Source of the DNA: a virus
Length of the DNA stretch: 50,124 bases
IMG/VR virus record: IMGVR_UViG_3300005581_000019
Location: 1 to 50,124 of that record
Strand: one strand, 5' to 3'
The translations under genes were made by a program, and so were the position numbers. This document shows positions 3,014 to 40,565 of the stretch, one piece after another. How positions within the stretch are numbered: position 1 is the stretch's first letter; each line of letters opens with the position of its first letter. The notes under the pieces were generated by a model that was given only the letters and a program-made list of their open reading frames with translations, was not told the origin of the DNA and did not search any database.

Positions 3014-3811
3014 ATGTCACCCACCATCCTGAAAAATGCCCAAGCTGTCGAAACTGAACTGCGGGCCTTGGTCCTGCAAGAGCTCAATCTATACCAAATC
3101 GCAAGGACCCTTGATATCTCGCCCGCAACGGCCCGGCGCTACATGAGCCACCTAAAAATAAAGCCTTTCGAAAAACGAAAGAAACGCAACAACAAGCCCG
3201 ACCATCGAATCGAAGAAATGGTTAAAATGAGGAAAAACGGACAAACACTGGACGAAATAGGAACCTTCTTCAACATCACGCGGGAACGAGTGCGCCAAAT
3301 TCTCCAGAAACAATGTCCCGACTTCGTGTTTCCTATTCGAATAGTCAAAAGCCAAACCTGCAACCACTGCGGAGTGTCATACGTGCCATCCGGACCCGGA
3401 TCGCAGTTTTGCAATCAAAAGTGCATGGGAGTGGCAAGAAACCTCACTTTCAATCGAGACACCGCCATCAAGGTGATGCGCCAACGAGATCAAGGAAAGA
3501 AGTGGTCTGAAGTTGCCAATGAATTAGGACAAGGAGCATCGCATGTAGTGTTTCGCGCCCGCATCCAACGCTACAAACATTTTTTCAGCAGCACAGAACA
3601 AGAATTGTACTTTCCAACAAAAAACGAAAAACAGTTCAAAGCCAATAGCGCTAATGAATTAGAAGAAAATGAAACAAAAGTTAAAGGTCATGACTCTTTA
3701 ATTACCAAGATGTTGCTTCCTCTTTTTAACTTGATCCGTTTACCATCCCATGCTAAAAGCCCTGTTGAATCCAATCCACAGGGCACTGCTCACCGGAAAA
3801 GACAACCGTAA
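3014..3811 (+). CDS. Two-HTH, zinc-finger DNA-binding protein
   Basis: 265 residues from the ATG at 3014. Residues about 25-45 (YQIARTLDISPATARRYM) are a resolvase/LuxR-style helix-turn-helix, and 77-100 (TLDEIGTFFNITRERVRQIL) match a sigma-70 region-4-type helix-turn-helix. A zinc site follows, C116xxC119 ... C133xxxC137, and then another helical region (ATLIKVMRQ-like, SEVANELG) that may be a third HTH. The last 60 residues are AT-rich, low in complexity and look foreign. It is a good candidate for a phage regulator and for recognising the dyad repeats, but that link is inference. A strong terminator follows. Confidence 0.75.
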   Translation: MSPTILKNAQAVETELRALVLQELNLYQIARTLDISPATARRYMSHLKIKPFEKRKKRNNKPDHRIEEMVKMRKNGQTLDEIGTFFNITRERVRQILQKQCPDFVFPIRIVKSQTCNHCGVSYVPSGPGSQFCNQKCMGVARNLTFNRDTAIKVMRQRDQGKKWSEVANELGQGASHVVFRARIQRYKHFFSSTEQELYFPTKNEKQFKANSANELEENETKVKGHDSLITKMLLPLFNLIRLPSHAKSPVESNPQGTAHRKRQP

Positions 3812-4337: not shown

Positions 4338-4568
4338 ATGAAACAACCAATCCAAGTGCGCTTGATCTGCGGCGAGCGAAGCAACATCTTTCGCAAACTC
4401 TACATTGATCAGGTGGGCAATTTCAACCGTGTCGCCTGTCGTTACGCCGGAAAAACCTACATCGTCCACTCCGAAGCCGGAGACTTAGGAGACCCGTTCC
4501 GGGCGAACCCAAGTTACTTGGACCGTCTTTTCATCAAAACGTGGGAACCCTGCCAGTGGTCTCTTTAG
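4338..4568 (+). CDS. Hypothetical protein (76 aa)
   Basis: A 76-residue protein (MKQPIQVRLICGERSN...) with alternating beta-type stretches and several aromatic residues, probably a small beta-rich fold. No family is recognised. It begins 1 nt after the preceding stop. Its own stop codon, TAG at 4566-4568, is provided by a copy of the dyad repeat. Confidence 0.65.
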   Translation: MKQPIQVRLICGERSNIFRKLYIDQVGNFNRVACRYAGKTYIVHSEAGDLGDPFRANPSYLDRLFIKTWEPCQWSL

Positions 4569-4578
4569 CCTGACTAAA
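4564..4578 (+). repeat. 15-bp dyad repeat, copy 2 (TTTAGCCTGACTAAA)
   Basis: An exact copy. It supplies the TAG stop of the upstream gene and ends 2 nt before the ATG at 4581. Confidence 0.9.
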
Positions 4579-4580
4579 AC

Positions 4581-4862
4581 ATGAACCAAGAACTCTCCGA
4601 CGACAACGCAGGCTCCGCCGCCATCCGCTTGATTCTAGAACCTTATCACCAGCGCATCTACGAGCTGGAGGGCCGTCTCAACCACATCGAGCAGGCCTAC
4701 ATCCATTCAGACCGTCTCCGCACCGAATGCCAGCTCAAGCTAGAAACCCTCACGAAAGCCGCTGAGCGCGCCCGAGATGCTCGCGGGCGCTTCCACACCC
4801 AAATAGCATTTGAAGCGCTCATAAAGCTACTGCAAGAGCAAAAAAAGCCCCCCCAGCCATGA
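4581..4862 (+). CDS. Coiled-coil hypothetical protein
   Basis: A 93-residue protein that is almost wholly alpha-helical, with heptad-like Leu, Ile and Ala spacing from about residue 20 to 85 (YELEGRLNHIEQ, LKLETLTKAAERARD). It probably dimerises as a coiled coil. The role is unknown. Its 4-bp overlap with the XRE-sigma gene that follows couples their translation, so it may be a partner or modulator of that regulator (inference). Confidence 0.65.
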   Translation: MNQELSDDNAGSAAIRLILEPYHQRIYELEGRLNHIEQAYIHSDRLRTECQLKLETLTKAAERARDARGRFHTQIAFEALIKLLQEQKKPPQP

Positions 4863-5434
4863 AAGTAACGGCAATCACTCGATACAAACACGGAGAGCTT
4901 TACCGCCTTCTTCGAAAACTTGGTTGGAGTCAAAGCGAGCTTGCGCGAAAAACCGGTTACAGTGCCGGAGCCATTGGAAGGGTAATCAATCTTGAGTTCA
5001 GACCTTCCGTCGACTTTGCCAACAGCATCCAAAATGCCTTTGCTGAAGCCGGAGAATATTTCGATGTCCTAGAAGAATGGCCAGAAACATTTATCGGCAT
5101 CGGAAAAGGATCGAAAGTGGAACAGACCATGGATGTCCCAATGGAGTCGCTTTTAAGCTGTCATGAGGCTATGAATCTTCCCGCGCCAAATCCTTACGAG
5201 GATGAGAAGGAAGATGAATTCGGACAAGCAATCGACTCCCTCAAACCGCAGCAACAAATAGTGATTCGCGCTCTTTACTTTGAAAACAAAACTCCCGTCC
5301 AAGTCAAAAAGGAAACCAAAATGAGTCTCTCTAGGATTCTCCAGATCAGAGATGCCGCGCTACGTTCGCTACGTCATCCCTCAAGGATAAAGAAAATGGA
5401 AAGCTACTGGAATTCCAAATCCACCCAGCCATGA
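4859..5434 (+). CDS. XRE HTH fused to sigma-70 region-4-like domain
   Basis: 191 residues. Residues about 14-65 (ELYRLLRKLGWSQSELAR... AGAIGRVIN) are a Cro/CI-type XRE helix-turn-helix. Residues about 123-176 (AIDSLKPQQQIVIRALYF ... SLSRILQIRDAALRSLR) fit sigma-70 region 4, including the turn before the recognition helix. No sigma region 2 is present, so it cannot be a full sigma factor. It could bind DNA at an operator and contact RNA polymerase or a -35-like site. It is a prime candidate for recognising the dyad repeats. It is somewhat AT-richer than its neighbours, as often seen for acquired regulators. Confidence 0.75.
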   Translation: MKVTAITRYKHGELYRLLRKLGWSQSELARKTGYSAGAIGRVINLEFRPSVDFANSIQNAFAEAGEYFDVLEEWPETFIGIGKGSKVEQTMDVPMESLLSCHEAMNLPAPNPYEDEKEDEFGQAIDSLKPQQQIVIRALYFENKTPVQVKKETKMSLSRILQIRDAALRSLRHPSRIKKMESYWNSKSTQP

Positions 5435-5664
5435 GCGATCACTTCATCCGAGACGAACAAGGCCGCTGCCACACCATCATCACGATGCCCAACATCTACG
5501 AATACGGTGGATTCATTTTTGAGTTCCACCGTGCTTGCGGGCCGATGAAGCTGAAAAAAGACTGGAATCCAGCTGCCCGGGAAGGACGCAAGTTTTGGAA
5601 AACCATCGACGAATGGAGCAAGCTGACCGACAAGCAAAAAAAGAAAACCCTAATCTCGGAATGA
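5431..5664 (+). CDS. Hypothetical protein (77 aa)
   Basis: A 77-residue protein with a beta-rich first half (GGFIFEFHRACG) and a basic, helical C-terminus (DEWSKLTDKQKKKTLISE). No family is recognised. It is coupled by 4-bp overlaps to the regulator upstream and to the next gene. Confidence 0.65.
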   Translation: MSDHFIRDEQGRCHTIITMPNIYEYGGFIFEFHRACGPMKLKKDWNPAAREGRKFWKTIDEWSKLTDKQKKKTLISE

Positions 5665-6660: not shown

Positions 6661-7006
6661 AAAAGATTTCCTTCGACCGTTATAAGGTAAAACGGTCTGG
6701 TCGCAGGAAGCAACAAGCCTGCCGTTCAGCATGGGTCCGCCAGTCAGGTGCCATGTGGGCGATAGTCGTGACTGGTTCGCCCGCCGTGGGGCGTGTCAAA
6801 GTTCCACGGCATCCAATTTCTACTGCTCCAGCAGCGACCGTTCGCTACGGAAACTGTAAAGCATGGCTTACAACACTGGAGGAAGAAAGCCCCACAGCCC
6901 CTGTCTGGTAAATGCGGAAGCCCTTCTCGGGCGATCTATAGAAGGGATGAAATCAGAGACGAGAATACGGACAAACGCTTGTGCCACTTGAAGCACACGG
7001 GCAAGG

Positions 7007-7052
7007 ACGGAACCGCTGGGGCGTCACGCCAGCGTCGGAAACGGTAACCGAC
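7007..7052 (+). repeat. Two-hairpin RNA motif, copy 1
   Basis: GGAACCG is followed by a hairpin closed by CGCTGG/CCAGCG with GCGTCA in its loop region, and then by GTCGG (7034-7038)/CCGAC (7048-7052) with the 9-nt loop AAACGGTAA. The same order, with different stem bases but matching loops, appears at 10302-10345. Confidence 0.65.
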
Positions 7053-7172
7053 ACCTCAATGAAGCGGCGGAATAGCTTACCCAACGACGCCTGAATCATT
7101 CATGTCCTACGCTTGAAATCTTCGAAGACTATACAGCGTAATCCACGAAAAAAACAGGGCCGCTTCACCCCT

Positions 7173-7187
7173 TTCAGTCTGACCAAA
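7173..7187 (+). repeat. Degenerate dyad repeat just before a start
   Basis: TTCAGTCTGACCAAA differs from the exact repeat at three positions and lies 4 nt before the ATG at 7192, the same placement as the exact copies. Probably a decayed or variant copy. Confidence 0.5.
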
Positions 7188-7191
7188 CACC

Positions 7192-24489: not shown

Positions 24490-24647
24490 AAAAAGAACTA
24501 CAAGAAGCTGCATTCACCCGTGAGATCGAGAAACGCATTGATCAGCTAGCAACCGAGTTCGACCTGTCCTATTCGTTCGTCGTGGGGGCCCTCAGCCTGA
24601 TCCTCCACGGGATCAAGGCTGAGTATTTTGAGGACAATGAAGATTAG
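24486..24647 (+). CDS. Last rightward gene, TTG start (53 aa)
   Basis: A TTG at 24486 overlaps the previous stop and opens 53 codons (LKKELQEAAFTREIEK..., the first residue being Met in practice). The product is helical and acidic, with ATEFDLSYSFVVGALSLILH in the middle. Its TAG at 24645-24647 overlaps the end of the giant leftward gene. No ATG is available, so expression relies on TTG. Confidence 0.5.
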   Translation: MKKELQEAAFTREIEKRIDQLATEFDLSYSFVVGALSLILHGIKAEYFEDNED

Positions 24648-27600
24648 TAGCTTTCCCTTTTCTCTTCTTTGACCGGCTTTCTAAGAACAGATTTGAAGTG
24701 ACCGCGAGCGTCTCGCATAAATGGAGCCAGCTCAGTCAGCGCATACATCGCCGAATTGCTTGCAGAGCTCATCCGGTTGCTGGCCGCTTCATCCGTCATG
24801 TTGTATTCGGCAAGAAGCTTCATCGCTGAGCTCATGTCGTAAACCGCGCTGGTCGCCGCCGTGACACCCATCGCGTTCTCGAAAGCCCCCGCTTCGTATT
24901 GACGAGCCATGACACCATCGTCGTCGAAGTAGAAACGAGACTTCTCAAGCATCTCGTCATTTCCTGTGATTCCACGATAGCCATTCGTGACCATCGTCAC
25001 AATGCTTTCCGCAGCGTCGTTGGTAATGAACTTTTCAAGCAAGTTGCTCACCGGAGAGTAACCCGCCGCAACTCCACCGACAGGAATCATCGTCGCGCTC
25101 TCTAGCAAAGTTTTGTTGAAAATCTCGGCAAGAGCAGAAGCAAACGCTGCGTCAGGTTCCAAATCGGACCTAAACAACTCGCGTTCTTTTCCAACCGCTA
25201 CAATCTTCAGGAAGTTGGCGACAGCGTTTCCATCCTCCGAAGGAGCAAGAATGTTGTTCGCCATCTCCTGCGCGTGGATCACCGCCTCGTCCTCGTCGTC
25301 TCCCATAAAGACCCGTGCGATCACCCAAGAAACGATTGAAACTGCAACCTTCCACTTCAAGATGGGGAACAAGGCGTTCTGGACAAATGTCGCAACGACG
25401 TTCTCCAGCGCCTCTTTGTGAGTGGCTTCGTCGATCACCTCGATCTTTTTGAATCCTGCCTTGCGAAGCAGCGGGTTGATGGCTTGCGGGAATTGCACGG
25501 ACATGTTGCTTGCCGTGGAAGACGTGTGGTTCGAGAACAACGTCAACGCCTTCCAAAGCGCCGAAACAAACGGGCTGTGGTCTCTGGATTGGAACATCCA
25601 AGCCTTGTTGCTGTGGTCCGACTGGCCGAACATCTCGTTCACTTTGAGACGTGAATTGACAATGTCCATGTCCTGAAGACTGACGTTTCCTTTGAACAAC
25701 TCGTTCTCGTCGGTGACGTTCGTATGGTCCATCAACTCGGCAATGAACACGGACGTTGCCAAAGCTCGTTCCATCTTTCCAATCGTAAAGTCCAAAGCGT
25801 CTTCACCAACCTTTTCGTAAGTGCGGATTGCTTTGCCAAGAGTGTTTTTGACCACCTTGCTGCCATAACGCTTTTGACCACGCGTCACATCGCGCAGCAC
25901 TTCGCGCCCATCCAGCGAGCGGTAATAAACCATGACGTCGTTGTCCATGACCAGTTGGCGGGCTTTCTCCCTGAACTTGGAGTCGGTCAAATACTTCGCC
26001 ACCAGCCTGAAGTAGTTCTTCACCATCCCCGGTTTGCCCACCGCCAGCTTGCCAAGAGTGTAGCCAATGGATGGTCCTACCGATTGGTCGGTGATTTGTT
26101 GGACGGAAGCCAAGCTGCGGACGATGAACGCCGAGCTCAGGAACCTGAGCGTTTCAGATCCCCCGGTATTTACGGCTCCAGTTTGGAAGTCATTCCTAAT
26201 CGCCACTTCAAGCTCGTTGGCGACAAACGCCAAGGCCGTGGTGGCTGCGACGATGTTTTGTTTGTGCTCGTGCTCAGCCTCGCGCAACTCACGATTTGGA
26301 AGCAACGGATCTGGTTTTTGAGCTTCAAGAATGGCAAGCATCCCGCTGTCTTCAATGTTCAACTGCCCGCTGACGTCCTTTACTTTGCCAATCGAACGAC
26401 GCAGCACCTCGTAAGTTGGAGTGACGTTCAGGCGGTAGATGGCGTCGTCAACCAGCGACTGCGGAGCGGACAAGCCGTTCACCGAAATCGGACGGAACAC
26501 GCTCTTGTCGTCAAACAACCGGGAAGAATGACCAATCCCACCGAAAAACGACGCCTCGTCAAACGAGACAATGTCCATCGGGTCGGAAACGTATTCGCCT
26601 TGGCGGATGTCTTCCTTGCCAGCCGGGTTGCCCGCGTAGGCAATGCTCATCGGGACCGACGAGTAGGTGGTCTTGTAAGCGTTGAGCTTCTTGTCCCGCC
26701 ACTTGCTGCTGGTGGCAAAGTCGTCAGCGCTCTCCGGCTTGGAAAGCATTGCCTGCGTGAAGTGCATGGCGCTGTCGATGTCTCCAAGGACGTCACCAAT
26801 GGTCTTGGCGTAGTGATCAACCGCTGCTTCCTTGCCGCTTGAGACATTCTTTCTCAGCGTCGCCTTGATCTTCTCAACCTCAGCGCGAGCCTCAACATCA
26901 TCGGTGAAAGTGGCGTTGACTTTCGCGGAAGTGAGGATGGAGCGCATCTTTTCCGTCAACTCCCGGTCGCGGATCAAATCAAGATGCCCTGCATTCCAGT
27001 AGCGTGAAATGTCGTTCTTGCCGTAGTAGTCGTCTTGCGCTTGGGCAAACTCATCGTATTGAGCAAAGCCGGTCTTGGCCTGCTTAATCCACTCGTTAAA
27101 CGCCTTCGCGTAAGTGAGACCGTGTGCGTTGACCAGCCCGTCTAGAAGCGCGATGAAGTAGCCAATCGACTGGTCCTGCGCGTTGTGACCCACCTGCTTG
27201 GCCGCTTGGGCAATTTCCTCCTGTGCCACCTTCTTGCTTCGCTCGTAACCGTGACGACCGCTTTTGCCGTCAATCCCACGGTCAAGAAGCGTCCGCAAGT
27301 GAATCGCCGCCTGACGCCCAGCACGAGTCTTTTGGAAGCGCTTCTTCATCCGTGCGTCGTGGTGATCCAAATACTCCATGAAGAACAAAGACGTCTTGGA
27401 GTTGTGGATGGTCATTGAGGTGGTGAGACGCTGAAGGATCAGGTCCGTCTCCACCTCCATGAACACCTTCGAGAAAATCTCCTCGGTCTTGAACCCAATC
27501 ATGTTGTCCACATCCCATCCGGCTCCCCACTGCTTGGCCGCAGCAATATTGGTAAACGAACGACCGTCATTCTCGCTGATGCTTTCAAGGAACGCCTTTA

Positions 27601-30600
27601 CGGCCTTCTTCGTGTCATCGCTCAACACTCCGGCGGAGTCGTTGTAGGCCATGACAATCCCTTCGATCTTGTGGATGGCACCGGCAAGAGCCGCTTGGGA
27701 GACGCGGCGAGACATATCCACCTTCTTCGTCCCGTCCGCTTTCATGTCGTTGCGGATGCCGTCGAGAAACACCTGCATCTTGCGGGTGAACTCATTGGAG
27801 AATGTCTTGGCAGCTTGATCCTTGGTCAGCGTCTTGCCTTTAGTCAGGCTAAACTCGTCCGAATTGAAACTCTCGCCCTTGATCCCATCCATGGTGTCCA
27901 TGAAGTAGGAATGGTCGTCGGCTGCAATAGCCAGAGCGTGCGAAGCTATGTGCCCTAAAACCGTGTTGGAATTGCGCTTGGTCACCCTACTAGGGAAAGA
28001 CCTCATAAGCTGCTCACGGGCCGTTGTGGCCACCATGATGACGTCCTGCCCTTCCTGACTGAACAACGAGCCAATCTTCTCCGACCGCTCCTTCATGCTC
28101 TTGGGCATGTTGAGGATGGTGAGACGGGTTTGCTGGTTGGGGGTGAGCAGTTGGAACTCAGCGCTCGCAGGGTCCACCAGCATCGCAACGTGCTCCGCTT
28201 CAAGACCGCGCATCATCGCTTGCTCCGCATCCGACCTCGCTTGTCCCATGTTGTCCCTCAAAACCACCTCCTCCACCTCGGTCATTTTGATCGCTTGGCG
28301 AATCACCTTGAGTGGGTTGAAGTTTTGGAAGTTGTCTTGGGTGTTGCGGGCGATCTTGTAGTTGTCGTCGATGTGGTCTTTGGAAAGGTTGGTCAACGCG
28401 TTGAGGACCGCCGTCTCCTTGATGTAGTGCTCTTTTCTACGAGCCTTGATCTCCGCGTCGGCCATCGACTCATCCGAAGATAGGTCATTCCATTTCGTCT
28501 TGTCACCACCTACGGTGTTGGTTCCGTCAGCGTTCTTGCTCTCCGTAAATTCAGGCGTGAGGAAGAGATGGAAGCCAATGGTGCGTGAAACAGGCTCAAC
28601 CCCCTCCGACACCAACACATCCCCCTTTGTCACCCGACCCACACCAATGTCCCCCTTGAAGAACGACTGCCCGACGTAGGAGCCACCGGTGTAGTTCTCA
28701 ACCTTGGAAAGTTCTGCGTTCACCGCACGGAGGTCTTTCTCCACCCGTGCGATTTGACGGTCCAAGACGCGAAGCTTTCCAGCCAAGACCACCGACTCCG
28801 CCTTGGCGAGTTCGGCGTTCTCCCTGCTCATCGCGTTGCTCATCACATCCACGCTGAGCTTCTTGCCGTTGCGCTTGCCGTTCTTGTCGGGAAGAGCGCT
28901 CTCGGTTCCGGCCCAATACTTCCTGACGTTCTCGGCGTTGAGGACAACAGCCTCGGCACGGGTTGTCTTTAGCCCGGCTAAAACCTCCTCGAAGCGGGCC
29001 TTGTTGTCTTCATGGCTCTTCACCAAAGCGCGGGCTTCACGCTCGGCAATCTCCATGGCGTTGCGCGGAAGCGCCACCTTCAGGTCGGCGATCAACTGGT
29101 CATTGACCACCACGTCCAATTCCTGATGACCAAACTTCATGTCTGCCATCGAATCGTTCGGCTGGTTGTGAGTCTTGTTCTCAGCCGCCTTGGCAAGCAA
29201 CGCGTTCTTGATCGACAGCGTCATTTGCTCTTCAACCATCGCCTCAACACTTCCCGTGTTGTAGAGAAGTCCGGCGTTGATCCGCTTGATCCGTGTCCCG
29301 TAAAACCCGGAGGTCAGACGCGTGCGCCCGTTCGCGTTCGGCATGGTCAGCGTCAGAGCCGATCCGACGTAGATGCGTGCCACCTTTTGCATCCGGGTCA
29401 ATTCCTTGGCCGGGCCAGTCGACTTGTCCTCCTTGGAGTTGGTCTTAATGACAGGACTGGAAAGCATTTGAAGCTCCTTGTTGTTTTTGTCAGTGTAAAC
29501 CCGCTTCCCTTGGTCCCTTAAAATCTCATTCGTGCTGCGACCTTTGCCGTCAGCGCGGGTGCGGAGCTCATCCAAGAACGCGTCGCTCTCCACTCCGTTG
29601 AATTGTTTGCCAGCAAGGACGATGGAAGCAAGGGCGTTGTAGAGGAGGTTGTCGCTCCTGTCGTTCTGGCTGAAGTCGGCTTGAGACATGACGGTCCGGG
29701 CCTTGTTCTCTTCCTCTCCAATCTCATTCATTTCCCGTTGGAATTCATCCAGCTCGGTATTATCGAACAATCCTGAAAGCTCATCATTCCTTTCCGTGGC
29801 ATCATCAATCTCGATCATTGCGTCCGGGCTGGACGTGCTCGCATTTTCCTCGTCCATTTCATCCTCTTCAGAATCGACAGGTTCCTCTTCAACCTCGTAA
29901 ATAGAGTTTTCGGTTTCATCACCAAAGCGGCCCGGATCATCCAGCTTGCTTTGACGGATCGACCAGATGGCTTTCATCAGGTCGTCCTGAATCTGGACTG
30001 GAAGCGTGGTTTCCAGCTTATCCTCCCTCGTCTTGAACGACTCGTCCAAGAACGTCTTGGCTTTGTCATCTGTAAGGAACGCGGAGATGGTGATGATGGC
30101 GTCCGCCGTGGCAGGCTCAATGTCAGGAAAAGACAGGCTTCTTGAGACAATGTCAAAGTCGGCGCGAATCGCCGCCATCCTGTCCAAAGCATCCAAGACT
30201 TGCGACTTGTTTGCGACAAACGTCCGTTTGCCCGGCTGTGAGCGGCGTGTGATCACACGACCCTCAACCACTGCCACCGGCTTTAGCTCAGTATCAATCT
30301 TTAAGGCCAGTTCAATCAACGTCGTCTTCACCGAGGGGTCGTTCTCCGCCGAGATGGAAAGCAGCTGGGAAATGACACTACGGGCTTTGTCTTTGGAGAC
30401 ATAGGGTCCGTTCTGGTTCAACGGAAGAATGACAACGTTTGGCGTGGCGGGTGTCTTGGCCTTCTTGTCAGCGGGTTTGCCTTTGAAGATTTGAACGCCC
30501 AAACTCTGCAGTCCATTGCGGTTGGCGACGTCCGACTGGATGTGGGCGACAATCGTCCGACCGGCAAGGTTGTCCACAAGATGGTCGATGATCGCATTGC

Positions 30601-33600
30601 CTGTCCCGTGTCCCATTCCAAGACGGGAGTCCTTGAACCAGAAGTTCTCACTCACCATCGACTCCTTGATGGCCGCTGTGATGCGCTCCGACTCTTCAGG
30701 GCTGACGAACGGGTTGCCGTTCTTGATCGCCTCATACGCCACGGCGACATCGTCTTGGTTCTTGAACCGGTCCGCTTCCACCACCTCGCGCTCAAACTTC
30801 ATCTTGAATTCAAGCAGGTCCATGATGAACCGCTCGGAATCCGTGAAGCGATAGCCGTTGGTCTCGGACATCTTGTTGCCGTATTCGCTGAGGAACGCCG
30901 TGTAAATCTGCCCGTGCATTTCGTCGTTGGTGTGACCCACGGCAGGGAATAGGCCTTTCAACCCTCTCTTCACCAGCTCTTCCGTCATCGCGCCATTGAA
31001 CGCGTTGAACAACTCGCGGTTGACCGCTTTCTGATCATACGGGTTGGCTTCGTTGAAATCCAAGTCCTCGTTCATCCGATCTTCCATTTCGCGGATGTCG
31101 TTGTCGCTGATGCGTGGGACATCGAGACCCGTGGCCGGATCAGTGACCATGCCGCCAAATGATCTCATGCCTGTCGGATTCAACGCTTCCCTACGCTCGC
31201 GCTCGGCAATCACCTGCTCGGCATTGAACCAGCCAGCATGACGCTCGGCACGCATGACGTCGAAGTGGAACTGCTGGCCGTCGGCAGACGAGCGACCGTT
31301 CGGTCCGTTGCTTCCAATGAACATCGCCGCAGACGTCACGCTCATCGCACGGTTGACCGCAGGACGACCAAAGGCACGCTCCGCGCTCTCACTCGGGGTT
31401 GACGCCCGACCTTCGTTGTAGGTGTCGTTGTAGCCCTCCATGGTAGGTGAGCTGGCGTTCATGAAGGAGTTGGCGACACGAGGATCGTCAGGGCTTCCAG
31501 AGAAATCGTTTGGATTGATCACCTCATCCGTGGAGCGAAGTTGGCCATCTGATCCGGGTTTCACCCTCACGTAAGGCATCCGGCCCTCTCCATAGCTGCT
31601 CCGGTTGATGCTGTCGTAAAGCTCGGACGCCCACGTCGATCCGTAGATGTAATTCCGGTCTTCTTCAAAATACTTCAACGTCCACGCCAACCGGTTCACA
31701 ACCCGAGCGTCCGACGTCATCTCCTTGAGCTTCAGGAACGCCTTGTTGTCCGGCTCGAAGGCGGGGTCGCGCTGGTAGCGGTTGCCTTCGTATTCCACGT
31801 TTCTGTGCCACTTGTCGTTCTGGAACGCCTTCAGAGACTTCTTCAGCAGCTTGACGCCACGAGTCGCGTTCCTGAATCCCCACGGAAGGAATTGGCTCCC
31901 CTGTCCGCTGACGATTGTATTGTAGAGCTTGTTGTTGATGTCGGCCACCTTCATGGTCGAAATCTTAATCAAGTTCCCATTCTCCAGCTCAAAAAAGTCC
32001 ATGAAGTCCACCTTGTCGGAAGGCATCTGGAACACCCCGTTCACGTTGTATTTCGACTTGGTCTTGTAGTGCTGCTTGAGGTCGTTCATCACCACCCTCA
32101 TTTCGTTCTGAAGGTAGGAGTCCAAGCCTCCGGTCATCTCAAACGATGTCTCGCCCGTCAGGCTGTTCCTTGTTTCCTGAAGCTTTCCAAACAACCCTTG
32201 AAGCATCGGAGTCATCCGGCCTGCAAAGCTTTGCTCGCCACCCACGGTGTCCGTGATCCGGCCTTCATACTTGCTCTTGATCTTGGCGGTCCATGAATTG
32301 ATCCCCTGATACGCCTTGAGCAGAGCCAAGATGGACCCCGACTTGTCGGACTTGCTCAGCGCGTGCTTTGCGGAGCCAAACTCCTCGCCGTCAAAATCAG
32401 GGAACGCCGAGTCCAACGACTCAAACTCCTCCTGATCGTTGTCGTTGACCTCTTTGTTGAAAAGGAAACCGCCCGTTCTTTCGTAGTCGCTGGCGCTGGT
32501 TCCAATCTCAAGCTTTCCAAGCTGGGAACTGACCCAGTAATTCAGGAACAGGTTCTTGCCCACGAAGTCGGCGTTCGACTCCATCGTTTGTTGGTAAATC
32601 TCAAGACCAGCGTTCCAGTCCTCTTGCTCTTGCGTCAGAGTTTTCCCGGCCTTTGGCCATACCGCTTTGGCTCCGTAACTGTAAACGCTCTCGCCAGCCA
32701 TCAGTCCCTTGAAGACATCATCCGACCCATAAGCGTGCTCCAACGTATCAGACAAGCTCTTGAACTCAAGCGAGCCAGCCTCACCCGTCGGGACGTTCAA
32801 GTCCGCCAAGTTGATCCCGAAGTCCTCGCTGCTCTTCCAAAACTCACCGACGGAACGGTTTTTGACGAATTGGATGGAATCGTTGTAGTCGTCAACGGCT
32901 TGCTGAAACTCCATGTATTCCCTGTAAACCGCTTGGGCCTTGGCGCGGGCTTCAGGGTCTTGGTTCTCGTCACGCTCAAAGACGTTGTCCTGACGCTTAT
33001 GGCTGATTTCCTTCTTCTTTTGAGAAGCGTCAAACTTTTCTTGAGAATAAGCACGGAGCTTTTCAATCATCTCCGTCATCTCCGCCACCTTGGACTCCTG
33101 TTCCTTTAGTCGGGCTAAAGAGTCAACCACTGGTCCTGAGAAGGTTTTCGCAAACCGCTCGTGCAAATCACCGGTAATGTAGTTCTCGGAGACAAGGAGG
33201 GATTGGAGAATAGACGTCTTGTAAGACTCAAGAGCCGCCGCAAATTCTTCTGGATTGGCCCGTTCAAGACGCTCACGTGGAGACCACTCAACAGACTGAT
33301 CCACACTTGCAACCAAGGGAGACAACGCGATATTTGTCTGATCGGTGGACTTGCTTGGTCGCTTGAGATTTCCAACCGGGCGAGCAACGTCGTCAATCTC
33401 AAGATTCGTGGAGACCTTGTATTTGCCGGGCTTGAGATTCTTCCTGAATCCAACGCTGGTCAAACGTCCCCACTTCAAGAGCTCTTTGATTGACGCCGAG
33501 CCACTGACCTTGGTGTCGATGTCTTGAACGGCACGAATGGCGTGAGCATATGCCTCGTTTGCCGTGCGGTTCATCTCGTCCACCGCAAGACCTCTGGCTT

Positions 33601-36600
33601 CCATCAAAGGAGTCAAAGGGCGCGTTGAAGATTCCTCCGCAGGCATCCCGTCCAGAATGGTGCGCCACAGCAACATGCGCTTCGCAGCGTTGGCCTCCTT
33701 GCGTTGGGTTGGGGACAGGTCGGGGTTGTTGTCGTCGCGGATGGTGTCGAACAAATCAAGTGGATTGAAGGACAGGCTGTCCCGTCTCATCTCCATGACC
33801 TGTTGCTTCATGAAGGCCACCGTCATCGCCTGCTGGTAAGCCGGTGCCTTCCCACCCTTGTCATTCAGGTCGAACAAAAACCCTTCCACCTGCTCCATCT
33901 CCTCATCAGTCAAGGTCTTGTATTCCGCAATGTGAGCCTTGATCCGTGGATGGAGATCCAGCGTCATGGTCTCGTGGTCGACGACCAAGGACTGACTGAG
34001 GTTCATGTGACCAAACTGCCTGCTGATCGAGCGCAGCTTCATCGCGGTCTTCGACTGGAGACGGGCAATCTTCCCGACCTCCTCCTTGAATGCCTTCTCG
34101 TAAACATCACGACGACGTTCCGCCTCCTTGGTCGCCTCGTCATAGCCGTAGTCCACGTCTCCTTGAATGCCCTCATTCCGGTAAGCCCGGTTCATGCTTG
34201 CCAACATTTCACGCGCCTGTGGCGGCAGGGTGCCTGTCTGCCACTTCATCCAGAGAATGTTCCTGACCCGTTCGGCATAGCGGCGGATCATGTGTCCAAT
34301 GACGCGCAGAGGACTTTTGGAGAGGCTTCCTTGCGTCTCGTTGGCCTTGTCAAAGGCGTCCCCGTAAATGGCGTCCTGAAGCTGGCGGGAGAGAGCTGTA
34401 TCGCGCTCCGTGGTCGTCCCCTTGGTCGCCATCTGGTGAAGCTTGCGGATCAGCTCCGTTGCCACCGTATAGGTGATTTCCAGTTCTTTGGCGTCCGCTC
34501 CCACCGAATCATCCATGTCCGCATCGTCAATTGACGCGTCGAGCGGCCTACCATTGGTTCCAGTCGGAAAGCGCTCTTTCAACGTTTCTTTCAAAAGACG
34601 GGTGAACTCATGGTCCGATCCGTCTTTGTTCTTAGGCAGGTCGAGAATAGCTTTGTAAAACGACCGAAGTTCGTCGGCGGAGAAAATCTTGAATCCAATC
34701 AAGTGGGTGAGCTCTTCGTCAATCCATGCTGAAATAACCCGAGCGGCATCCATCCCGAGCAGCGTGTTGGACGCGGAATCGTTGGTGTTGGCTGTCCGGT
34801 AAATCTTGGCGAGCTGCACAGCCATCTTGGCGTAGTCCACCTTGATCGTGCCATACTCGGTTGAATCGACGTTTGGCTCAGCGTAAAGGAAGCTGTCACC
34901 GCTCATCTCCTCCTTGACGACCTTGAAGGTCTTCTTCGGAGACACCACCTTCATCACCTTGGCGAACAGCTTCTCCATGTTCTCTGGAGTGATGTCTCCT
35001 TTGGCAATGCTCTTGAAGTGTTTCTGAACCTCCTTGGCAACGTTAGCAAGCAAGGAGCGGGTGTATTTGTTTCCTTGGTTTATCAGACCTTTGTCGGTGA
35101 TGAGGTCGCCAGCAGCTTCGGCAGTGGTTTTCTTGGAGAACTCCCAACGTCCATTTACCACATTCGTCACCTGAAGAAACTCGTCAGGCTTGCCCTCAAT
35201 CGCCACCACCTCGCCAATCGACAATGACAGCGAGCTGCCAGTAGGCGGACGGTAGCTGTAAACAACCTCCTTGGTTTCCGAGACGTCCATCGTCCAGTTG
35301 CCGCCAATCGAGTCGTCACCTCCCTTGATCAACTCCGGGTCGGCGACGTAAACCACATCCTGATAAACCGTCGAAGCCGCATTGTCCGCTGTCTTGTCCT
35401 GCGTCTTCAGGGCGTCGGCTTTGGAATGGCCAGCAAGACGGGCCTGCATGGACTTGATGGCGACAGAACGAGTGCCGCCCCCCTTGGACAACTCATTGTC
35501 AATCGCTTCGTCGGTGACGTAGGTTTTGCCGTTCTTGGCGACGGGTTTGAAGACGCCGTTGTCATGGATGTAGTTCGGATCGTTTTCACCCAATGGCGGA
35601 AGCCCGCGCTGGATGTCGCTTCCAAGCTTGTTGCGGACCACCTCCCGGTCGTTGTTGGTAGGTGTGGCTGGAGCTGCCGGGGTGGATTCCTCGGCAGCTC
35701 CTTCGTTCAGCAGCCCTTGCCTTTTGGCTTCGACATCGGCATCGGCTTTCCTTTTGGCATCGGTTTCGCTTTGGTTTTCATCGGTTGGTGGTGTTGGTTT
35801 CTTGGTTTCTTCCGCCGGAGTGGCGGAAGGAGTTGGGCCGGTCGTCGGGGCGTCGGGTGAATTCGTTTCTTTTCTCGCGGTTTTGAGTTTTGTGACCTTG
35901 CCCCCGAATATCGTGAGAACCGTTCTTGGTGCATGACTACCTCCAGTTGCAAACTTCCCGTCACCAATACTCCACCATACCACGCCTTGCTCGTCGATGA
36001 TTTCTTCAGCCTGCGAAGCCTGTTCTAGTATCTGTGCTTCGAACGATTTCCGCTTTTTACTTAGTTCCACCGCCGCCTGTTCACGGGTAAGGCCTTCCGC
36101 CATTCGCTTTTTGGTATATTCGCGGCCGTCTTTCAGCTCATTGGGTAATTGTGGGACAGCATCCCCGATATTTAATGGCGTTTGTGGCGTGGCGGAGGGA
36201 GCTTCTTTAACCGGGCTAACTTCAGATGGAGATAAGTCAATTTCGTTGTCGCTCAGCCCTTCACTAGATGCCACAGCGCCTGCGCTTGATGTCTTGAGAG
36301 ATGCGCCAGCACTTGCAGCTTCGCCACCGCTGTTTCCTTCGGCATCTCGAACATCGGCCAAATCTTCTTCGCCGGTAACGGTGATTTCTGCATCAGTTGT
36401 TGGATTTGCTCCATCTTGTTCGGACCATTCATCGTGGTAGGTTGTGTCGTTTGCATTGGTTGAAAATTTATCTGACCATCGTTTGGCCATGCTGGCGTCT
36501 TTCGGCTTGATCACCTGCTTCACCGTTCTGAGCGCGGTGGCGGCTTGAGGCGGACTGAGATACTCGGTAGTGACGGTGCCGTCTGGATTGACCGTTTCCT

Positions 36601-39190
36601 TCTTGGCGGCGACGTAGGTGGCCAAGCTCCGTCCTTCCCCGGACGGGACAGACATCGGAGTGATGGTGACGTTGTTGGCAATCTTCAATGGCGTCGCACC
36701 TTCGGTCGGGACCATGGCGATATCCGCCCGCCATTTCTTGCCAGTGGGGGCGGTGATGCTGGAAGAACTCAAGACATCGCCAAGTGTGCCCACTGGAGGG
36801 GGTGTTGCTGCGACTCCCTGTGCCGCAGGAGGCTCTTGAATTGGATTGGTGGCACTTGGTGCCGCAGGTGGCGTCGTGGTGGCAGACGTGGGCTCTGGTG
36901 CCACGGAAGGGATTGGAGCTGTTGTGGGCGTTACAGCGCCAACGAAGTCCGCGTTGATCGACTGGCCGCGTGCTAGAGCCAACAACGCCTTTGACTTCTG
37001 CTCCACCGACACCTTGTCGTCTGGCATCGCAATGTATTCCGCCATGTTCTTGGCTCCTGACGCAGTGCCCTTGAACTCGTATTGGTCCAAACTCTGGAAA
37101 GTTTCCACCTTGGTCTTTAGCTGGTCCCACGCGGCCTTCTGGATGTCGTAGCCCTCGCTTTTGCCGAAGGTTCCCTTGGCATCCATCACCGTCCCGGACG
37201 CATCCCCCATCGCACCACCCACCGCACCCAAGATACCGGCCTTGACGTATTCCTTCCACTTGGTGCCGATGTTGCCCCAAACGTCTTCGGTCCACGTCTT
37301 GGAGTCGTCGAGCATCGAGCTGATGACGTCGGAGATGATCTCGTCAGAGGACTCCTCCACCGCTTCAGCGCCCATGTTGCCGAGCACTCCAACACCTTTC
37401 AAACCAAGCTGTTTGGCGGACGTGTTCATCACGCCTTTCAGATCCTTGGCGAACTGCGTGCGAAGAGAGGCTCCCGCATCACCACCCAAGTCGGAGATGG
37501 TTTTCTGGACGGCCTCCATGCTCTCACGAGTGAGGGCCTTGTTCTTGAGATTCTGGATGAACCCACCACCCACTGCGCCATCACCCATCCCGAACGCCTT
37601 GCCCATACCGGGGGCGACACGGTTCATGACACTGGTGGCGATGAACGCACTGAGACCGTCTGACGTCGCTTCGATGTTCGCCGCCTTTAACGCCTTCTCG
37701 CGGTCGCCGTGAAGGTTCATCTCTTGGTTGAACGTCTTGCCGAAGCTAGTACCTGACGCCTGAAGCGAGCCAAGCCACACCTCCGGATCGGTGCCAATAG
37801 ATTTTAGCCCGGCTAAAGTCTTTTCCCCGAGAGTGCGTGTTCCGGCAGCGGCAGCGGCTTCGGTCTTGGCGACCGTGGACAGCAGGACACCCGCCTCGTT
37901 GACCGCATAACGACTCGCGCCCGCAGCCCCAACCTTGGTCAAACCCTTGCCCGCCAACGCGCCCATCCCACCCATCGCGACGAACGAGCCAATCTGTCCG
38001 GTGAGCTCGGTCAAGTCGCGGCGATTGATGTCAACGCCAAACAACTCGAACGCCTTACCATTGGAGTAAGCACCCGCCGTGTCTTCGGCCAAACCTCCCC
38101 AAGCTTCCGCAGGCGACGTGTAGTTGCCCGCAGACGCCAGCCACAAGGCACCAGTCCCCGTCGCCATCATCGCGTCGCGGAACGTCGCCGCGATCTCGGA
38201 GCCGACGCCGTAGGAGTCCTTGTCCATCCGGTCCTTGTTGGCCTTCAAAAACTCGTAGCCACTGGCTCCGGGCTTCTTCATCGCCTCCATGAACTCGTCC
38301 CGCAGCGGAGAGCTCACGATGGAGCCCAAGACGCCCGCGTCCGCCGCAGCGAACTGGTTGACCGTCTTGCCGATGTTCTCCTCCACCTTCGAACGGTAGT
38401 CGATGAGCATCATCTTCTTGTCCGCAGCGGAAAGGTCCAAACCGTTGATGGCGGCTTCCATCTTGTCGATTTGGTTGAAATTCTTCGGGTTCATCACATA
38501 CTGATCCCTGACCTTACCAATCATCACCTCGTCACCCAACGACGACGGGTCAAAGGTGCGCTTCGCCGACTCGGCGTAGAACGCTTTCTCCATCTCCTTG
38601 TTCTCAGGATCAAGGTGGGCCTCGCCGTTCTTCACCTCGGCGTTGGCGAAGTCGGTGTATTCCTTGTAGGTTAAAGACGGGGACTCCCCCTCCTTGGTGA
38701 TCTTCTGCCTCTCTTGGATGTAAGCTCCCATGTCCGAGAACCGGTCGGGCTGCTTCTCTCTCTTCTGTGTGAGAATGTTTTCAAGAGCAGGGTTGACCTC
38801 CCACTCCCGAGTTTCAGGGTTGCGTCTCACGCCACCACCCGGCAATGAAGCCGCCACTTCCAAATACTCTTTAGCCCGGCTAAAACGTTCCTTGCCATCC
38901 TCCGTCAATCCTCCAGCAGTATTGAACATGGGGACCTCAGCCTCCACCTCCTCGGAGACACCCGCATCGTTTTTGCGCCGAACCAGCCCTTTGATTTTTT
39001 TGGTCTTGTCCGCTTCTTCAGTTGTCGCCCAATCCAAAAACCCTTCCCCTGCCGTGGCTTTTTGATCCAAGCTGTCAATGTATTGAGCCGAAAGGAGGTA
39101 GTCGTTCAAAGAGGACGTCAACTCGTTCTGCACCGGAGAGTCGGTGGGAAAAAGAGACTCGTCGCCGGTGTTCAGATTGTTGAAATCCAT
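24644..39190 (-). CDS. Giant internal-virion/polyvalent-type protein (4848 aa)
   Basis: One uninterrupted frame of 4848 codons, the last gene of the leftward block. Residues about 1-380 are helical. About 380-720 are Gly/Ala-rich with amphipathic or membrane-active stretches (QIGSFVAMGGMGALAGKG, VKAGILGAVGGAMG). About 750-1250 hold Pro/Ser/Thr/Gln-rich linkers. A WIDEELTHLIGFK segment near residue 1500 recalls a metallopeptidase-like EExxH site in related giant phage proteins. The rest is long helical domains, ending near 4200-4848 with SLASVQQITDQS, FVQNALFPILKWKVAVSIV and PVGGVAAGYSP. Size, order and flanking virion genes suit ejected internal proteins of podoviruses. I saw no RNA polymerase or lysozyme motif. 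Five clear dyad repeats lie inside it. Confidence 0.7.
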   Translation of the reverse strand: MDFNNLNTGDESLFPTDSPVQNELTSSLNDYLLSAQYIDSLDQKATAGEGFLDWATTEEADKTKKIKGLVRRKNDAGVSEEVEAEVPMFNTAGGLTEDGKERFSRAKEYLEVAASLPGGGVRRNPETREWEVNPALENILTQKREKQPDRFSDMGAYIQERQKITKEGESPSLTYKEYTDFANAEVKNGEAHLDPENKEMEKAFYAESAKRTFDPSSLGDEVMIGKVRDQYVMNPKNFNQIDKMEAAINGLDLSAADKKMMLIDYRSKVEENIGKTVNQFAAADAGVLGSIVSSPLRDEFMEAMKKPGASGYEFLKANKDRMDKDSYGVGSEIAATFRDAMMATGTGALWLASAGNYTSPAEAWGGLAEDTAGAYSNGKAFELFGVDINRRDLTELTGQIGSFVAMGGMGALAGKGLTKVGAAGASRYAVNEAGVLLSTVAKTEAAAAAGTRTLGEKTLAGLKSIGTDPEVWLGSLQASGTSFGKTFNQEMNLHGDREKALKAANIEATSDGLSAFIATSVMNRVAPGMGKAFGMGDGAVGGGFIQNLKNKALTRESMEAVQKTISDLGGDAGASLRTQFAKDLKGVMNTSAKQLGLKGVGVLGNMGAEAVEESSDEIISDVISSMLDDSKTWTEDVWGNIGTKWKEYVKAGILGAVGGAMGDASGTVMDAKGTFGKSEGYDIQKAAWDQLKTKVETFQSLDQYEFKGTASGAKNMAEYIAMPDDKVSVEQKSKALLALARGQSINADFVGAVTPTTAPIPSVAPEPTSATTTPPAAPSATNPIQEPPAAQGVAATPPPVGTLGDVLSSSSITAPTGKKWRADIAMVPTEGATPLKIANNVTITPMSVPSGEGRSLATYVAAKKETVNPDGTVTTEYLSPPQAATALRTVKQVIKPKDASMAKRWSDKFSTNANDTTYHDEWSEQDGANPTTDAEITVTGEEDLADVRDAEGNSGGEAASAGASLKTSSAGAVASSEGLSDNEIDLSPSEVSPVKEAPSATPQTPLNIGDAVPQLPNELKDGREYTKKRMAEGLTREQAAVELSKKRKSFEAQILEQASQAEEIIDEQGVVWWSIGDGKFATGGSHAPRTVLTIFGGKVTKLKTARKETNSPDAPTTGPTPSATPAEETKKPTPPTDENQSETDAKRKADADVEAKRQGLLNEGAAEESTPAAPATPTNNDREVVRNKLGSDIQRGLPPLGENDPNYIHDNGVFKPVAKNGKTYVTDEAIDNELSKGGGTRSVAIKSMQARLAGHSKADALKTQDKTADNAASTVYQDVVYVADPELIKGGDDSIGGNWTMDVSETKEVVYSYRPPTGSSLSLSIGEVVAIEGKPDEFLQVTNVVNGRWEFSKKTTAEAAGDLITDKGLINQGNKYTRSLLANVAKEVQKHFKSIAKGDITPENMEKLFAKVMKVVSPKKTFKVVKEEMSGDSFLYAEPNVDSTEYGTIKVDYAKMAVQLAKIYRTANTNDSASNTLLGMDAARVISAWIDEELTHLIGFKIFSADELRSFYKAILDLPKNKDGSDHEFTRLLKETLKERFPTGTNGRPLDASIDDADMDDSVGADAKELEITYTVATELIRKLHQMATKGTTTERDTALSRQLQDAIYGDAFDKANETQGSLSKSPLRVIGHMIRRYAERVRNILWMKWQTGTLPPQAREMLASMNRAYRNEGIQGDVDYGYDEATKEAERRRDVYEKAFKEEVGKIARLQSKTAMKLRSISRQFGHMNLSQSLVVDHETMTLDLHPRIKAHIAEYKTLTDEEMEQVEGFLFDLNDKGGKAPAYQQAMTVAFMKQQVMEMRRDSLSFNPLDLFDTIRDDNNPDLSPTQRKEANAAKRMLLWRTILDGMPAEESSTRPLTPLMEARGLAVDEMNRTANEAYAHAIRAVQDIDTKVSGSASIKELLKWGRLTSVGFRKNLKPGKYKVSTNLEIDDVARPVGNLKRPSKSTDQTNIALSPLVASVDQSVEWSPRERLERANPEEFAAALESYKTSILQSLLVSENYITGDLHERFAKTFSGPVVDSLARLKEQESKVAEMTEMIEKLRAYSQEKFDASQKKKEISHKRQDNVFERDENQDPEARAKAQAVYREYMEFQQAVDDYNDSIQFVKNRSVGEFWKSSEDFGINLADLNVPTGEAGSLEFKSLSDTLEHAYGSDDVFKGLMAGESVYSYGAKAVWPKAGKTLTQEQEDWNAGLEIYQQTMESNADFVGKNLFLNYWVSSQLGKLEIGTSASDYERTGGFLFNKEVNDNDQEEFESLDSAFPDFDGEEFGSAKHALSKSDKSGSILALLKAYQGINSWTAKIKSKYEGRITDTVGGEQSFAGRMTPMLQGLFGKLQETRNSLTGETSFEMTGGLDSYLQNEMRVVMNDLKQHYKTKSKYNVNGVFQMPSDKVDFMDFFELENGNLIKISTMKVADINNKLYNTIVSGQGSQFLPWGFRNATRGVKLLKKSLKAFQNDKWHRNVEYEGNRYQRDPAFEPDNKAFLKLKEMTSDARVVNRLAWTLKYFEEDRNYIYGSTWASELYDSINRSSYGEGRMPYVRVKPGSDGQLRSTDEVINPNDFSGSPDDPRVANSFMNASSPTMEGYNDTYNEGRASTPSESAERAFGRPAVNRAMSVTSAAMFIGSNGPNGRSSADGQQFHFDVMRAERHAGWFNAEQVIAERERREALNPTGMRSFGGMVTDPATGLDVPRISDNDIREMEDRMNEDLDFNEANPYDQKAVNRELFNAFNGAMTEELVKRGLKGLFPAVGHTNDEMHGQIYTAFLSEYGNKMSETNGYRFTDSERFIMDLLEFKMKFEREVVEADRFKNQDDVAVAYEAIKNGNPFVSPEESERITAAIKESMVSENFWFKDSRLGMGHGTGNAIIDHLVDNLAGRTIVAHIQSDVANRNGLQSLGVQIFKGKPADKKAKTPATPNVVILPLNQNGPYVSKDKARSVISQLLSISAENDPSVKTTLIELALKIDTELKPVAVVEGRVITRRSQPGKRTFVANKSQVLDALDRMAAIRADFDIVSRSLSFPDIEPATADAIITISAFLTDDKAKTFLDESFKTREDKLETTLPVQIQDDLMKAIWSIRQSKLDDPGRFGDETENSIYEVEEEPVDSEEDEMDEENASTSSPDAMIEIDDATERNDELSGLFDNTELDEFQREMNEIGEEENKARTVMSQADFSQNDRSDNLLYNALASIVLAGKQFNGVESDAFLDELRTRADGKGRSTNEILRDQGKRVYTDKNNKELQMLSSPVIKTNSKEDKSTGPAKELTRMQKVARIYVGSALTLTMPNANGRTRLTSGFYGTRIKRINAGLLYNTGSVEAMVEEQMTLSIKNALLAKAAENKTHNQPNDSMADMKFGHQELDVVVNDQLIADLKVALPRNAMEIAEREARALVKSHEDNKARFEEVLAGLKTTRAEAVVLNAENVRKYWAGTESALPDKNGKRNGKKLSVDVMSNAMSRENAELAKAESVVLAGKLRVLDRQIARVEKDLRAVNAELSKVENYTGGSYVGQSFFKGDIGVGRVTKGDVLVSEGVEPVSRTIGFHLFLTPEFTESKNADGTNTVGGDKTKWNDLSSDESMADAEIKARRKEHYIKETAVLNALTNLSKDHIDDNYKIARNTQDNFQNFNPLKVIRQAIKMTEVEEVVLRDNMGQARSDAEQAMMRGLEAEHVAMLVDPASAEFQLLTPNQQTRLTILNMPKSMKERSEKIGSLFSQEGQDVIMVATTAREQLMRSFPSRVTKRNSNTVLGHIASHALAIAADDHSYFMDTMDGIKGESFNSDEFSLTKGKTLTKDQAAKTFSNEFTRKMQVFLDGIRNDMKADGTKKVDMSRRVSQAALAGAIHKIEGIVMAYNDSAGVLSDDTKKAVKAFLESISENDGRSFTNIAAAKQWGAGWDVDNMIGFKTEEIFSKVFMEVETDLILQRLTTSMTIHNSKTSLFFMEYLDHHDARMKKRFQKTRAGRQAAIHLRTLLDRGIDGKSGRHGYERSKKVAQEEIAQAAKQVGHNAQDQSIGYFIALLDGLVNAHGLTYAKAFNEWIKQAKTGFAQYDEFAQAQDDYYGKNDISRYWNAGHLDLIRDRELTEKMRSILTSAKVNATFTDDVEARAEVEKIKATLRKNVSSGKEAAVDHYAKTIGDVLGDIDSAMHFTQAMLSKPESADDFATSSKWRDKKLNAYKTTYSSVPMSIAYAGNPAGKEDIRQGEYVSDPMDIVSFDEASFFGGIGHSSRLFDDKSVFRPISVNGLSAPQSLVDDAIYRLNVTPTYEVLRRSIGKVKDVSGQLNIEDSGMLAILEAQKPDPLLPNRELREAEHEHKQNIVAATTALAFVANELEVAIRNDFQTGAVNTGGSETLRFLSSAFIVRSLASVQQITDQSVGPSIGYTLGKLAVGKPGMVKNYFRLVAKYLTDSKFREKARQLVMDNDVMVYYRSLDGREVLRDVTRGQKRYGSKVVKNTLGKAIRTYEKVGEDALDFTIGKMERALATSVFIAELMDHTNVTDENELFKGNVSLQDMDIVNSRLKVNEMFGQSDHSNKAWMFQSRDHSPFVSALWKALTLFSNHTSSTASNMSVQFPQAINPLLRKAGFKKIEVIDEATHKEALENVVATFVQNALFPILKWKVAVSIVSWVIARVFMGDDEDEAVIHAQEMANNILAPSEDGNAVANFLKIVAVGKERELFRSDLEPDAAFASALAEIFNKTLLESATMIPVGGVAAGYSPVSNLLEKFITNDAAESIVTMVTNGYRGITGNDEMLEKSRFYFDDDGVMARQYEAGAFENAMGVTAATSAVYDMSSAMKLLAEYNMTDEAASNRMSSASNSAMYALTELAPFMRDARGHFKSVLRKPVKEEKRESY
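27839..27853 (-). repeat. 15-bp dyad repeat inside giant gene (TTTAGCCTGACTAAA)
   Basis: An exact copy of the gene-junction form on the coding strand, read as FSLTK (residue about 3780). It is the only junction-type copy wholly buried inside a gene rather than at a gene boundary. Confidence 0.85.
28968..28982 (-). repeat. 15-bp dyad repeat, symmetric form, inside giant gene
   Basis: TTTAGCCCGGCTAAA on the + strand; on the coding strand it is read as LAGLK (residue about 3403). Confidence 0.85.
33105..33119 (-). repeat. 15-bp dyad repeat variant inside giant gene
   Basis: TTTAGTCGGGCTAAA on the + strand, read as LARLK (residue about 2024) in the coding direction. It is intermediate between the two main forms. 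Confidence 0.8.
36206..36220 (-). repeat. Degenerate dyad repeat inside giant gene
   Basis: TTTAACCGGGCTAAC differs from the variant at three positions; read as part of VSPVKEA. It may be a decayed copy or chance. Confidence 0.3.
37803..37817 (-). repeat. 15-bp dyad repeat, symmetric form, inside giant gene
   Basis: TTTAGCCCGGCTAAA on the + strand, read as LAGLK near residue 458, within the Ala/Gly-rich region. Confidence 0.85.
38870..38884 (-). repeat. 15-bp dyad repeat, symmetric form, inside giant gene
   Basis: TTTAGCCCGGCTAAA on the + strand, read as FSRAK near residue 102. This is a different frame from the LAGLK copies. Confidence 0.85.
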
Positions 39191-40550: not shown

Positions 40551-40565
40551 TTTAGTCAGGCTAAA
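40551..40565 (-). repeat. 15-bp dyad repeat at leftward gene start (TTTAGCCTGACTAAA)
   Basis: An exact copy when read in the direction of the leftward genes, ending 7 nt before the ATG at 40543. On the + strand it reads TTTAGTCAGGCTAAA. Confidence 0.9.

Follow-up and report, generated by a model that had tools for sequence, protein, structure and literature searches.

The virus record analysed here, complete at 50,124 bases (the window), encodes a protein of 191 residues in which a DNA-reading domain of the repressor type is joined to part of a sigma factor; it belongs to a divergent family of phage regulators that is so far uncharacterised. We propose that this protein is an accessory phage transcription regulator, HTH-plus-sigma-like in build, that its sigma-4 part faces the transcription machinery, and that it is independent of the dyad repeats scattered through the same genome. 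We give this reading a probability of about 0.45. The domain structure of the protein and the comparison of its locus among related phages support a preliminary description of this DNA in part, and clearly separate the protein from two partners that had been proposed for it.

Domain structure of the fusion protein

The gene and the parts of its product are as follows.

4859-5434, + strand: XRE / sigma-70 region 4 fusion protein, 191 aa (Pfam, relatives, AlphaFold model)
4895-5047, + strand: XRE (HTH_3) domain, residues 13-63 (Pfam HTH_3, high-pLDDT helices)
5048-5179, + strand: linker, residues 64-107 (family alignments, pLDDT)
5180-5416, + strand: sigma-70 region 4-like domain, residues 108-186 (Pfam Sigma70_r4, structural alignment)

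Both domains score above the Pfam gathering thresholds. HTH_3 matches residues 15-61 (E 5e-7, 30.1 bits against a gathering score of 23), and Sigma70_r4 matches residues 124-173 (E 8e-9, 35.3 bits against a gathering score of 24.1). No Pfam match to sigma region 2 or 3 was found in the 191 residues; the XRE domain stands in the place of region 2, the part that recognises the -10 element and binds core polymerase. The protein is an XRE (HTH_3) and sigma-70 region 4 fusion and not a whole sigma-70 factor. Among the sequences of solved structures, its best match is region 4 of RpoD (E 6e-4, residues 119-183). The PHROG families divide in the same way, the C-terminal half matching a sigma factor family (phrog_351) and the N-terminal half matching repressors and regulators (phrog_3 and phrog_8), with no PHROG family spanning the whole protein. 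The Pfam matches include no DnaA family at the N-terminus and, up to E 1, no DUF6456, the family associated with the C-terminal part of GafA and GafYZ (discussed below).

The AlphaFold model, built from 17 sequences, has a mean pLDDT of 73.8 and a pTM of 0.38. Helices are placed at high pLDDT at residues 13-21, 25-32, 36-43 and 51-63 of the XRE unit and within residues 114-188 of the sigma-4 unit, and residues 79-92 of the linker fall below 50. The low pTM indicates two units whose mutual arrangement is not predicted to be fixed. The predicted sigma-4 unit aligns with residues 524-613 of E. coli sigma70 (Z about 10, rmsd about 2-3 A) and shares 20-29% identity with primary sigma factors in structural alignment. 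Because Pfam, the solved-structure match, the AlphaFold model and the sigma70 alignment agree, we consider the domain reading correct. The preliminary description had recognised a Cro/CI-type HTH at the N-terminus and a sigma region 4 without region 2 at the C-terminus, and had suggested structure prediction as a check; the Pfam scores, the fold match and the predicted pair of helical units around a low-confidence linker all agree with it.

A divergent family of phage proteins

Twelve near-full-length relatives were recovered, 11 in virus records and one on a contig of a Verrucomicrobiota bin, at 34-52% identity to the window protein. All of them begin with MK[IV]TA[IV]T[RK], one from a GTG codon, and this conserved start makes the start codon of the window gene credible. 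The linker motifs (G)EYxDVLxEWPExF and QTxxV are kept in the family, so that the order in the relatives is XRE, then the xDVLxEWPExF and QTxxV stretch (partly relaxed in loci L077-L081), then the sigma-4 domain; this layout is preserved in 13 sequences. In L002, L036 and L038 both domains exceed the Pfam cut-off, as they do in the window protein. The recognition helix of the XRE domain differs among the relatives. A marine sister group (L043 and 34 viral loci, L083-L116) shows the same domain order at similar length and is 20-26% identical to the window protein; its N-terminus aligns as XRE-like but falls below the Pfam cut-off for HTH_3. Judged from these alignments, the fusion is a true phage protein family spread across diverse phages.

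A profile search of 387 Verrucomicrobiota genomes returned, among the matches listed, only G027 and, more distantly, G384 as matches extending beyond region 4; nearly all the others listed are region 4 of the host RpoD. No full-length relative was found among the INPHARED phages, where the six matches inspected are full-length sigma factors or unannotated records, and a search of a literature library found no XRE and sigma region 4 fusions in phages.

The genes that surround the fusion vary from locus to locus. Exonuclease, RecT and integrase genes lie near it in L036, L079, L080 and L038, a DnaB-like helicase gene in L002, and a major head protein gene upstream of it in L082. In L076 the gene for the terminase small subunit lies one ORF downstream, a position that is a frequent seat of phage late regulators. 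No partner gene is constant across the fusion-bearing loci compared, which fits a stand-alone regulator.

The fusion gene occupies a variable cassette

The locus in the window comprises the following elements.

4564-4578, + strand: dyad TTTAGCCTGACTAAA, also present in fusion-less relatives; ORF 4581 starts 2 nt after it
4581-4862, + strand: coiled-coil-like ORF upstream of the fusion, with an ATGA overlap with it; present in fusion-less relatives
4837-4847, + strand: 11-bp direct repeat AGCAAAAAAAG, copy 1 (read in the sequence)
4837-5632, no strand assigned: variable cassette of 796 bp that spans the fusion and the larger part of ORF 5431-5664; L118 has a clean empty site, and L117 and L119 carry different content here
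5431-5664, + strand: downstream ORF, with an ATGA overlap with the fusion
5633-5643, + strand: 11-bp direct repeat AGCAAAAAAAG, copy 2 (read in the sequence)

Three close relatives of the window phage lack the fusion. In two of them, G001 (73.9 kb, 27 dyads) and G003 (37.8 kb, 18 dyads), the flanks are 84-90% identical to the window at the nucleotide level and the dyad before the coiled-coil gene is kept, and an unrelated gene of 71 aa, also joined by ATGA overlaps, sits in the place of the fusion. In the third, G009 (L118), which likewise retains the dyad and the coiled-coil gene, the window flanks align gapless across a single copy of AGCAAAAAAAG, with the 796 bp missing. In L118 the last residues of the coiled-coil frame are KKKTLISE, as they are in ORF 5431 of the window. 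For this reason the empty locus seems to have arisen by deletion from an arrangement like that of the window; recombination between the AGCAAAAAAAG repeats that flank the cassette is the likely path. ORF 5431-5664 itself has no match among the other loci compared. The GC3 of the fusion (0.46) is the lowest of the 37 genes of at least 90 aa, whose mean is 0.67. With an empty or replaced locus in the relatives and the lowest GC3, the fusion is, on these comparisons, dispensable cargo in a variable slot.

The coupling of the fusion to ORF 4581-4862, proposed in the preliminary description, is visible in the sequence as a 4-bp ATGA overlap. The further suggestion that the coiled-coil protein works as its partner did not hold. 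The three fusion-less relatives keep that gene, and it was found near the fusion in none of the other fusion-bearing loci, which rules out an obligate partnership. Since close relatives keep it without the fusion, the alignments identify the coiled-coil gene as a backbone gene.

The fusion and the dyad repeats do not travel together

The dyad TTTAGYCNGRCTAAA occurs exactly 18 times in the window, and 20 times with up to 2 mismatches, where 0.3 would be expected by chance. The fusion had been proposed as a possible dedicated reader of these sites, which could form with them a self-contained regulatory system. Their presence in one genome is consistent with this, as is the dyad that stands 2 nt ahead of the coupled gene pair, but the distribution of the two elements is against it. 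A scan of viral contigs recovered 32 stretches in 23 records with 124 dyads (several of these records hold a single copy, possibly by chance), and the fusion is present in 0 of these 23 other dyad-bearing records. In the converse direction, the relaxed dyad TTTAG-N5-CTAAA is present in 0 of the 11 fusion-bearing virus records (about 369 kb), a narrower motif in 0 of 4 fusion-bearing records or genomes, one of them 4.9 Mb long, and TTTAGYCNGRCTAAA is absent from the Verrucomicrobiota genome that carries the fusion. The converse direction carries a caveat, as the recognition helix varies and the relatives could read other sites. The search from dyad to fusion is free of that objection because several dyad records are closely related to the window phage, with genes 80-100% identical. 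Moreover, relatives with nearly identical flanks have the dyad before the coiled-coil gene and no fusion. This failure of co-occurrence in both directions, together with the empty locus, leads us to reject the dedicated reader, now a very improbable reading. The presence of a regulator and a repeat in the same genome is not evidence that they are paired; here, relatives separate the two cleanly. The dispersed stoperators of cluster A mycobacteriophages resemble the window dyads in being many sites spread over a genome, but those are bound by the phage repressor (PMC9283540), whereas the fusion does not co-occur with the dyads.

The sigma-4 surface of the window protein

Positions in region 4 are numbered here on what we take to be the E. 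coli RpoD sequence. We compared the family at 16 residues listed for -35 contact and six listed for core binding in E. coli RpoD (PMC4943231). The window fusion keeps 3 of the 16 (R586, Q589 and R596) and 1 of the 6 (L598). Its close relatives keep 5-11 and 3-5, respectively, the sister group 12-13 and 4-5, and the RpoD proteins shown from Verrucomicrobiota, the host phylum, 14 and 5. The sigma-4 domain of the window protein is the most changed of the family, and it retains the LRxLRHPSR helix motif. R562 and F/Y563 are kept by all close relatives, and ALRxLR by nearly all, which we count in favour of the regulator reading.

With so few -35 and core positions kept, it is improbable that the window copy reads an ordinary -35 element. 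Whether it contacts polymerase is uncertain. Contact, if any, would have to rest on other parts of the domain, such as the retained LRxLRHPSR helix, and has probably been weakened or shifted to another site.

Possible functions of the fusion protein

The regulator reading is based on two predicted folded domains, on a family found in diverse phages, and on the placement of the gene, which lies within an early operon as a dispensable cassette. The XRE part, probably as a dimer, would pick phage (or host) promoters; the sigma-4 part would dock on RNA polymerase near the beta flap, or on the host sigma factor; and docking would shift the output of polymerase at the promoters so chosen. Alternatively, the sigma-4 part may serve as a second DNA-binding unit. 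Promoter and terminator scans near the fusion gene stayed at chance level, and no palindrome that could be its own operator was found near the starts of the relatives in the four stretches scanned.

A more specific form of the docking idea is one-protein sigma appropriation, in which the sigma-4 module would replace host region 4 on the flap, the XRE domain would supply a new promoter specificity, and the cassette would be exchanged among phages to rewire transcription. We consider this form unlikely. Its closest mechanistic analogy, and that of docking in general, is sigma appropriation by MotA and AsiA of phage T4 (PMC6755090), the likeness being a possible way of working in which a sigma-4-like module would sit at the flap and a separate DNA-binding module would choose the promoter; T4 uses two proteins, and neither has sequence similarity to the fusion. 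If the sigma piece does dock on polymerase, one small protein would carry out the task that T4 divides between two.

The closest characterised parallel in architecture is GafA and its split form GafYZ, phage-derived regulators of gene transfer agents that pair an N-terminal DNA-binding HTH with a C-terminal sigma-like HTH and lack region 2 (PMC6363796, PMC9638019, PMC11150451). GafA of Rhodobacter capsulatus activates transcription directly, and its central region binds the omega subunit (PMC6363796, PMC9638019). However, the N-terminus of GafA resembles the DNA-binding domain of DnaA, whereas that of the fusion is an HTH_3 of the Cro/CI type, and the Pfam matches revealed no homology to GafA; the likeness is at most one of outline. 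With region 4 of RpoD/SigA the fusion shares the fold and the LRxLRHPSR helix, but it lacks regions 1-3, and the -35 and core positions are mostly changed in the window copy.

It is because the window copy has lost most of these contact positions that we hold the docking reading to the probability given above and leave an appreciable, smaller chance that the protein works as a roadblock or repressor. DNA binding would then be the only use of its two HTH units, the sigma-4 part having turned into a second DNA-binding or dimerisation unit with no polymerase contact, and the resemblance of the N-terminal half to phage repressors and regulators (phrog_3, phrog_8) would fit as well. Yet the LRxLRHPSR helix of the window copy and the R562/F563 pair of its relatives exceed what a generic HTH needs; this account seems to us rather unlikely. 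It is also conceivable, if improbable, that the gene is a decaying passenger with little function left in the window phage: it has the lowest GC3 and the most changed sigma-4 domain of its family, and close relatives do without it. Against decay stand an intact frame of 191 aa, intact overlaps with both neighbours, and an alignment to the relatives that covers almost the entire protein and preserves the family motifs. Less probable again is an antiterminator like GafZ or Q, which would load at a promoter and ride polymerase through terminators. GafZ of Caulobacter offers a precedent, as it has a sigma-like HTH, binds a palindrome between the -10 and -35 elements and acts in antitermination (PMC11150451), and the sigma-4 part of the fusion has a weak PHROG match to a Q-like antitermination family. 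That match (E 0.24) is not significant, however, and the scan near the gene found neither a terminator nor a loading site. The regulator reading, with the sigma-4 part facing the transcription machinery, is the one we prefer.

Other features of the window

ORF 3014-3811 has two HTH-like matches (one of them Sigma70_r4-like), a Cys-rich stretch and low GC3, and copies 55% identical to it are present in G001 and G003. It was considered as a general alternative reader of the dyads and rejected, being present in 2 of the 23 dyad records, many of which are fragments. The dyad as a general repeat of Verrucomicrobiota was likewise dismissed, with one copy in 288 genomes.

In the stretch 6661-7190, some 500 bases lack any plausible gene; this stretch is partly conserved in G001 (about 80%), has no Rfam match and folds little better than its shuffles (z -1.2). 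On the minus strand, 24644-39190 is a single open frame of 4848 aa, stretches of which match dyad-bearing relatives at 24-33%.

There look to be two kinds of dyad site in these phages, of which the CCTGA class appears to be a start-associated element. Dyads with a CCTGA core lie at 806, 4564, 10539, 15518, 17058, 21504, 22929 and 23854 (+ strand) and at 40551 and 42204 (minus-strand genes), and 10 of 11 in the window are 1-7 nt (once 19) 5' of an ATG on the coding strand. The tendency extends to the dyads of this class in the dyad-bearing loci, where a start lies within 45 nt on the coding-sense strand in 53 of 69 cases, compared with 23 of 69 for the opposite strand. The CCCGG/CCGGG class shows no link to gene starts.
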